From NCBI GenBank assembly GCA_027624235.1, contig JAQBYB010000002.1, positions 1 to 64,000 of the forward strand: a DNA stretch of 64,000 nucleotides, read 5' to 3'. Positions 62,321-64,000 of this stretch are shown here, in pieces; within the stretch, counting starts at the first letter, position 1, and every line of letters starts with the position of its first letter. The notes beneath the pieces are model-generated. The model was not told where the DNA came from and did not search any database. It was given only the letters and a program-made list of their open reading frames with translations. Made by a program: the position numbers and the translations under genes. The stretch is from Pseudomonadota bacterium (lineage in GTDB: Bacteria > Pseudomonadota > Alphaproteobacteria > Rhodospirillales > Casp-alpha2).

Positions 62321-62929
62321 ATGCTGTTTTCCATTGTGATCTTCGATGAGCCGGACAGCGGCGCGATGCGCGATGTTTGGCGCGAGCGGCACCTGGTTTA
62401 CCTGAAAGCCTTCGACGAGCAGACCCTGTTCGCCGGCCCGTTCACCGCCGACGACGAGTCCGCCGACCTCGGCAGTCTGCGCCTGATCGAATTTGCCGAC
62501 CGGGCGGCGGCGGAACAACACGTCGCCGACGAGCCGTATGTCACCGCCGGTATCCAGAAACGCTGGCACATCAACCGCTGGCAGGCGTCGGTGCCGTTCA
62601 CCTGGCGCGATTGCCCGCGCACGGACGGCAACATTCAGGCGCTGTTTCATGGTCTCGATGTGGCGGACGGCCCGGAACGCCGCGCCGCCCACCAGGCCGC
62701 GCAATATGCCTATCTTGATGCGCACAGCGCATCGATCATGTCGCGGGGGCCGATCCTCACCGACGACGGCGCGGCCAACAAAGGCAGCGTCATGTTATTT
62801 GATGCCCCGGATATGGCGGCGGCGCGGGCATTGCTGGAAAACATGCCGTTTTACAAAGCCGGCTGTTACGGCGATATCCTCTTCCACCGCTGGCGTTTCG
62901 GCCGGGTGTTCGACCGCAATAAGGTCTAA
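62321..62929 (+). CDS. Tandem YciI-like domain protein
   Basis: This 202-residue protein consists of two YciI-like (ferredoxin-like alpha/beta) domains. The first runs from LFSIVIFDEPDSGAMRDVWRERHLVYLKAF to about residue 90, the second from ALFHGLDVADGPERRAAHQAAQYAYLDAHSASIMSRGPIL to the end. Each has an Arg-x-x-His-like helix and a Gly-Pro turn. AAAGGA precedes the ATG. YciI proteins include dehalogenases and lactone enzymes; the function here is unknown, but coupling to the amidohydrolase suggests a shared pathway. It overlaps the convergent recombinase by 4 bp. Confidence 0.82.
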   Translation: MLFSIVIFDEPDSGAMRDVWRERHLVYLKAFDEQTLFAGPFTADDESADLGSLRLIEFADRAAAEQHVADEPYVTAGIQKRWHINRWQASVPFTWRDCPRTDGNIQALFHGLDVADGPERRAAHQAAQYAYLDAHSASIMSRGPILTDDGAANKGSVMLFDAPDMAAARALLENMPFYKAGCYGDILFHRWRFGRVFDRNKV

Positions 62930-63744
62930 TCCGGGAAGCGCGCCGTGAATACTTTTCGGCTGCCGTACTTTTCCAATTTCGGAACGGCGTGGGCTTTTTT
63001 TGGGAAACCGCCGGTTTTGGCCAGGTATTGCATGACGAACTCTTGCACCGCCGCCAGCTCGAACGACTTATTCACGTAGCCTTTGTAACCACTGTCTTTC
63101 TGGCTGGCGAACGTGGCGCGCGCCGCCCATGCATCAATTTCCTTTTGCATGGGATGTAAGGCCGCATGGCGCACGCGGTCATCGAGCCGGCCGGCTTTGC
63201 GGTCATTGATGATTCGATAGACGCTGGCGCGGCCAATATCGAGCGTTCTGGAAATTTCGGTAGCGCCGGCCCCCTTATCCTTGAGCCGCAGAACATCTTT
63301 TGATTTGGCCCGCGCGGTCGGCTTGCGCCCTTTGTAGCGTCCTTCGGCCTTGGCCTTGGTGACGCCTTCCTGGCGGTGCTCCAAGGCGATCTCTCGTTCA
63401 AAGCGGGCGATGGCCGCCGCCATCGTCAGCAGATGCCGTCCCGCCGAAGTCCCGGTGTCGACGCCAAGATCGAGGATTTGCATGGTCGCGCCCCTGGCTT
63501 CCAGGCCATCGGCAATTTGAACAAGGTGCTCGGTGGAACGGGCCAGCCGGTCCAACCTGGTGACGACAAGGCTGTCGTCGGTGCCGATAAAATCCAACGC
63601 CGCGGCCAATTGTGGGCGCAAACTTGCGAACGATCCCCGATCGGTGAAGACCTTTTCACAGCCGGCCTTGTTCAGCTCACCCAACTGCGCCTCAAAATCG
63701 GCTTCCACATTAAGAATAGGCGCTCTGGCGTAGCCAATTTTCAT
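62926..63744 (-). CDS. Serine recombinase homologue with altered catalytic loop
   Basis: This 272-residue resolvase/invertase-family protein has a catalytic-type domain (1-140), an HTH domain (TEISRTLDIGRASVYRIIND, about 170-190) and an extra C-terminal region of about 80 residues. Family residues R7, R43, D65, R66 and R69 are present. The nucleophile Ser in the usual YARVST motif is missing: this protein reads YARAPILN, with Pro at position 9 and two residues inserted. Strand cleavage by that Ser is therefore unlikely. DNA binding may remain, perhaps as a repressor. ATG at 63744 has GGGA upstream; a candidate res site lies just upstream of the gene. Confidence 0.85.
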   Translation of the reverse strand: MKIGYARAPILNVEADFEAQLGELNKAGCEKVFTDRGSFASLRPQLAAALDFIGTDDSLVVTRLDRLARSTEHLVQIADGLEARGATMQILDLGVDTGTSAGRHLLTMAAAIARFEREIALEHRQEGVTKAKAEGRYKGRKPTARAKSKDVLRLKDKGAGATEISRTLDIGRASVYRIINDRKAGRLDDRVRHAALHPMQKEIDAWAARATFASQKDSGYKGYVNKSFELAAVQEFVMQYLAKTGGFPKKAHAVPKLEKYGSRKVFTARFPD

Positions 63745-63757
63745 GCTATTTTCCCAA

Positions 63758-63823
63758 TGTCTCAATCAAATAACTTATTTATGGTACACTGTCTCATATA
63801 AATAAACCAGCCTTTATGAGACG
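63758..63823. promoter_or_regulatory. Res-like recombinase binding sites
   Basis: Two dyads stand side by side upstream of the recombinase. The right one (63790-63823, 34 bp) has TGTCTCATA / TATGAGACG arms, eight bases of each perfectly inverted. The left one (63758-63788, 31 bp) has TGTCTCAAT / TTATGGTACA arms, less perfect. Tn3-type resolvases bind such TGTC-ended 25-34-bp subsites in front of their own genes. Confidence 0.65.
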
Positions 63824-64000
63824 GTTTTCGGCGTCCACACCCGCCGCTTGGCCCGTCACACGCCACTTGGCGCGCCTCGGTGGCGGCGATGCCGCTAGGG
63901 GACCCCCCTTGCCGCGCCGGCGCGGCATTCGAAATCCGGTTTGGGCCTGGACCGGCGAAAGGCCGAAAAGCCGCCGCCGAAATTCAAAGGTAGGCATTGG
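63824..64000. other. Right-end intergenic DNA without recognised gene
   Basis: This GC-rich stretch runs to the window end. Short open frames occur on both strands, but none has a ribosome-binding site or recognisable sequence. A gene might continue beyond the window, which cannot be judged here. Confidence 0.4.

Follow-up and report, generated by a model that had tools for sequence, protein, structure and literature searches.

The resolvase-like protein P0001 is, on sequence evidence, a solitary member of a serine resolvase subfamily found mainly in Alphaproteobacteria, and it is accompanied in the 64,000-nucleotide stretch of DNA analysed here (the window) by a matching, truncated res site. 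The protein has lost residues associated with recombination and the res site lacks crossover site I, while site II and an eroded site III remain upstream of the gene, and a family-like HTH stands beside a diverged catalytic domain. The explanation that we favour, with about an even chance of being correct, is that P0001 is a recombination-dead resolvase that still binds sites II and III and acts only as a DNA-binding autoregulator. This would require P0001 to be expressed, to bind DNA, to repress its own promoter and to be maintained by selection, all of which we infer.

The open reading frame placed at 62926-63744 by the initial annotation is confirmed and lies on the minus strand (63744-62926), running from an ATG start codon at 63742-63744 to a TAG stop codon at 62926-62928, and its 272 aa translation begins MKIGYARAPILN. 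P0001 possesses the Resolvase N-terminal domain (PF00239, E 4.6e-28) that identifies small serine recombinases, and a C-terminal HTH_7 (E 4e-05), in agreement with the HTH reported earlier. The PDB matches are Tn3 and gamma-delta resolvases, and the predicted structure resembles the structures of gamma-delta, Tn3 and Sin (best E 6e-14).

Homologues were drawn from plasmids, phages, GTDB genomes, viral contigs and genome searches that included 385 class-level genomes, giving an alignment of 137 non-redundant sequences, namely P0001 and 136 relatives with identities of at least 41% and about 58% at best. The nearest relatives are 55–58% identical, and the N-terminus of the subfamily reads YARTST. 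Both the translation and this alignment uphold the original claim that codon 9 of P0001, CCT (63718-63720, minus strand), encodes proline in place of the catalytic serine, which is invariant in the other sequences (136/136); the serine of the YARxS motif is missing, and residues 7-13 contain no Ser, Thr, Cys or Tyr. The homologues sharing this proline that were envisaged as a conserved clade were not found, as every relative examined has serine, and no relative with Pro9 was detected in genome contigs, viral contigs, plasmids, phages or the 385 class-level genomes. The genome-contig scan, of which the best 80 of at least 556 relatives were retained, used a pattern that permitted proline. Six exact DNA matches to GYARAPILN in viral contigs were all in chance frames.

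The active-site loop (RAPILNVEADFEAQ, codons 7-20, 63685-63726, minus strand), which carries Pro9, T10I and Q13V, had been described as having two extra residues. These are not out of the ordinary, as 130 of the 136 relatives have a loop of equal length and P0001 aligns to its own subfamily with zero gaps (YARTSTLDQKASIEAQ vs YARAPILNVEADFEAQ); the two residues count as extra only against YARVST proteins of the Tn3/gamma-delta type. An abnormal loop insertion is thus rejected, loop length being a subfamily trait. Nor was the serine lost with all else left intact: together with S9P, the changes T10I, Q13V, E35D, R123H and Q124R fall at positions invariant in all 136 relatives, R54G, G56D and M120A fall at near-invariant positions, and the crossover site has also been lost. 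P0001 deviates at 9 of the 38 columns conserved in at least 95% of relatives; the relatives themselves average 0.6 such deviations, with at most 4 in any one, so that the count in P0001 exceeds chance.

Two of these changes can be placed by alignment with gamma-delta resolvase. Codon 123 (63376-63378, minus strand), His for an Arg found in 136/136 relatives, corresponds to gamma-delta R125, a residue in a charged patch proposed to aid docking before religation (PMC11607074), and codon 54 (63583-63585, minus strand), Gly for an Arg found in 132/136, falls at gamma-delta E56, where Sin has R54 as part of its inter-dimer R interface (PMC2428073; PMC9943657). Since H123 and G54 occupy these positions, the changes in P0001 reach beyond the nucleophile to positions linked to catalysis and synapsis. 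The alignment shows that R7, S38, R43, D57, D65, R66, R69, E116 and R117 are kept, including the five (R7, R43, D65, R66 and R69) that had been listed as retained, and the active-site Arg, Asp and Glu residues equivalent to gamma-delta R8, R45, D67, R68, R71, E118 and R119 are all present, with His at the equivalent of R125.

In many relatives, the res site that precedes the gene consists of a 28 bp site I of the GTCTCA-N16-TGAGAC type, then site II, a 32 bp GTCTCA-N20-TGAGAC element usually spaced 21–23 bp from site I, and then site III. Upstream of P0001, alignment of a res profile, R1, to the family site II places a predicted site II, GTCTCA-N20-TGAGAC with both arms perfect, at 63791-63822 (minus strand), a palindrome that has its single occurrence in the 3.03 Mb genome here, with 0.02 expected per window by chance. 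A predicted site III, GTACCA...TGAGAC, also matched by R1, lies at 63759-63787 (minus strand) and is partly eroded, with two mismatches in the left arm and a perfect right arm. Crossover site I, for which the approximate expected place is 63840-63875 (minus strand), 21–23 bp beyond site II, is absent; the best score within 600 bp of a site I PWM was -2.8, inside the shuffled range, whereas the 46 relatives with three or fewer arm mismatches from which the PWM was made gave leave-one-out scores of 14–37. The three-part res site with GTCTCA/TGAGAC arms extends across the subfamily (relatives L041-L120), with a TTGAC -35-like element within site II and a site I core that is found in both orientations; the TTGAC element, common in site II among the relatives, does not persist in the window.

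The R1 profile, built from 30 relatives picked for their easily recognised sites, matched 13/13 held-out relatives from model position 12-23, that is from site I onward (43–68 bits; for L090 the match stopped at position 124). In the window the match began only at model position 63 and covered sites II and III, with 18.6 bits (63752-63835, reaching model position 149). No second R1 match and no second perfect-arm palindrome was found as another res site or regulatory target in the whole assembly, and as this is 94.7% complete, a site I elsewhere in the genome is unlikely. The truncated res site and the further losses at invariant positions were both absent from the initial annotation. Its pair of alternatives, a loss of very recent date or a newly acquired role in DNA binding, was the right one, but this is not a one-mutation loss, as the crossover site is gone along with several positions specific to recombination.

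The P0001 gene converges on a YciI-like gene, overlapping its end by a few bases, and an amidohydrolase gene is the other downstream neighbour. Beyond the res site are genes for a HigB-like toxin and an HTH antitoxin, followed by dnaJ, dnaK, grpE and an HrcA-like gene (the last names being from translation). Nucleotide similarity and synteny with the genus mates examined stop at the dnaJ stop codon, at position 65004 of the contig (L004:10005), which puts the resolvase in a variable spot, and no P0001 orthologue was found in 9 genus mates. The locus is known from one sequence, taken from a draft assembly in 159 contigs. The possibility that it is the remnant of a Tn3 transposon is rejected, as no match to the Tn3 transposase (PF01526) was found in the genome.

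Divergence from the family is uneven along the protein. Residues 1-20 have the lowest family-profile score of the 137 sequences (z -5.3), and residues 21-58 and the E helix are also low (z -3.4 and z -2.8), whereas the hinge and HTH that form the DNA-binding domain (residues 136-181, 63202-63339, minus strand) score as normal for the family (z +0.5, 94th from the bottom among the 137). With the tree held fixed, P0001 has a terminal branch of 1.25 for residues 1-134, the second longest of 127 (median 0.29), and one of 0.27 for residues 135-181 (median 0.25). The ratio of catalytic to HTH branch ranks 4 of 127, high but not unique, and the uneven divergence reflects either uneven decay or a changed function, between which the branch ratio alone is not decisive. 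An HTH as family-like as that of active members, with sites II and III upstream, favours retained DNA binding over uniform decay.

A serious and close rival to the autoregulator is a decaying relic, a resolvase that has drifted since losing site I or its serine, whose frame has so far escaped stop codons and frameshifts by luck and whose HTH and site II are leftovers; we regard this as quite possible, if somewhat short of probable. P0001 is a singleton, the E helix and segment 21-58 have diverged along with the active site, site III shows erosion, and conservation within the genus does not extend past dnaJ, a pattern typical of mobile-element debris. Serine is found in all relatives, the outcome that the initial annotation had named as counting against its own reading and for recent decay, and decay is retained here on that ground. 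A fully normal HTH, the perfect arms of site II and the coding composition retained in the C-terminal part are, however, harder to reconcile with drift. The nine changes at conserved columns imply about 0.12 substitutions per site, at which 3.4 stop codons would be expected in 272 codons (probability of none about 0.03), together with several indels at an assumed indel:substitution ratio of 1:12, although the estimate, in taking every one of the nine changes to be neutral, is a rough guide only.

Recombination appears to have been lost both in trans, through the missing nucleophile and the changes at further residues used in recombination, and in cis, through the missing crossover site I; cleavage is not expected, and there is no substrate for crossover. 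What survives is what is needed to bind sites II and III beside the start codon, and a P0001 dimer most likely still binds these candidate sites. In Tn3, recombination takes place in site I, site III adjoins tnpR, and binding of the resolvase to res autoregulates tnpR (PMC7157771), while dimers bound at sites II and III play an architectural part, and S10A subunits, which fail at site I, still work at those two (PMC9943657). As sites II and III require no catalytic serine and res binding controls tnpR in Tn3, autoregulation would be the simplest active role for P0001, and because sites II and III would cover its own promoter region, this may be its only one.

The likeness to Tn3 and gamma-delta TnpR, for which res binding is known to autoregulate, extends to the resolvase fold and HTH, the position of site III next to the gene, and, in the relatives, the 28 bp site I and 21–23 bp I-II spacing, the Tn3 linker being 22 bp (PMC9943657). 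P0001 differs from these in lacking the catalytic serine, site I and any Tn3 transposase, in having His at the R125 equivalent, and in its extension of ~87 aa. The YARTST subfamily (L036, L041-L120), with members in Azospirillum, Magnetospirillum, Roseovarius, Paracoccus, Methylorubrum and others, shares 45–58% identity, an equal loop length, a similar recognition helix region and, in many cases, the GTCTCA/TGAGAC arms; its members all have Ser9, Thr10, Gln13 and Arg123, however, those tested keep site I, and nearly all are shorter (mostly 180–210 aa, longest 245). The missing nucleophile is shared with laboratory S10A and S9A mutants of Tn3 and Sin, of which Tn3 S10A retains a synapsis signal (PMC11607074), but P0001 is natural, has several further changes and, to match, has lost its crossover site. 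No natural serine resolvase without its nucleophile was found in the literature searched, though one may have been described before. In serine resolvases, an architectural, DNA-binding function at sites II and III goes together with catalysis at site I; a natural protein and site of which the architectural half alone survived would, if true, show that the two functions are separable in evolution, and studies of resolvase autoregulation could use the pair as a natural control.

The C-terminal extension noted initially is present, at ~87 aa (residues 186-272, 62929-63189, minus strand), and has no detectable relatives: Pfam and PHROGs (best E 0.2) gave none, nor did plasmids, viral contigs or genomes of the same order. 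At class level a single weak match was spurious, being in an unrelated protein and without tblastn support. The in-frame coding score of the extension is 0.22, the best of six frames, and since codon composition also favours the annotated frame, the extension is probably genuinely translated; the coding score also argues against its being a fresh read-through into non-coding DNA. AlphaFold predicts a helix at 186-218, with the rest at low confidence. It is conceivable, though on balance doubtful, that P0001 is an exapted, nucleophile-less resolvase kept by selection as a DNA-binding protein with an orphan C-terminal domain, serving either in self-regulation or in interference with the resolution of incoming elements that have the same res arms.

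A dominant-negative role, in which P0001 would bind the GTCTCA-arm res of incoming elements, mix with their resolvase and block the resolution of cointegrates or multimers, is improbable. The HTH is like that of active relatives with identical res arms, some of them on plasmids and viral contigs, and inactive S10A subunits at site I stop Tn3 recombination (PMC9943657), but there is no sign of a defence context and no second res site in the genome. An assembly or sequencing artefact behind the proline codon and odd loop is very improbable indeed, for although the draft assembly is fragmented and the locus has no second copy for comparison, there are nine separate changes at conserved columns, a frame that is open to its end with coding composition, and, independently of these, a loss in the upstream site.

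Three further observations concern the surroundings of the gene and the wider family. The HigB-like toxin and then the HTH antitoxin lie at 64350-65036 of the contig (L004:9351-10037), outside the window and ~530 bp beyond site II; toxin-antitoxin pairs adjoining res have been described for Tn3 transposons (PMC7157771). Between res and this pair is an imperfect tandem array of about nine copies of an 11-bp unit, starting at 63989 (L004:8990-9096). Among the relatives from class-level genomes, L222, L225 and L226 were reported with stop codons within the matched frame, which may point to decay elsewhere in the family.
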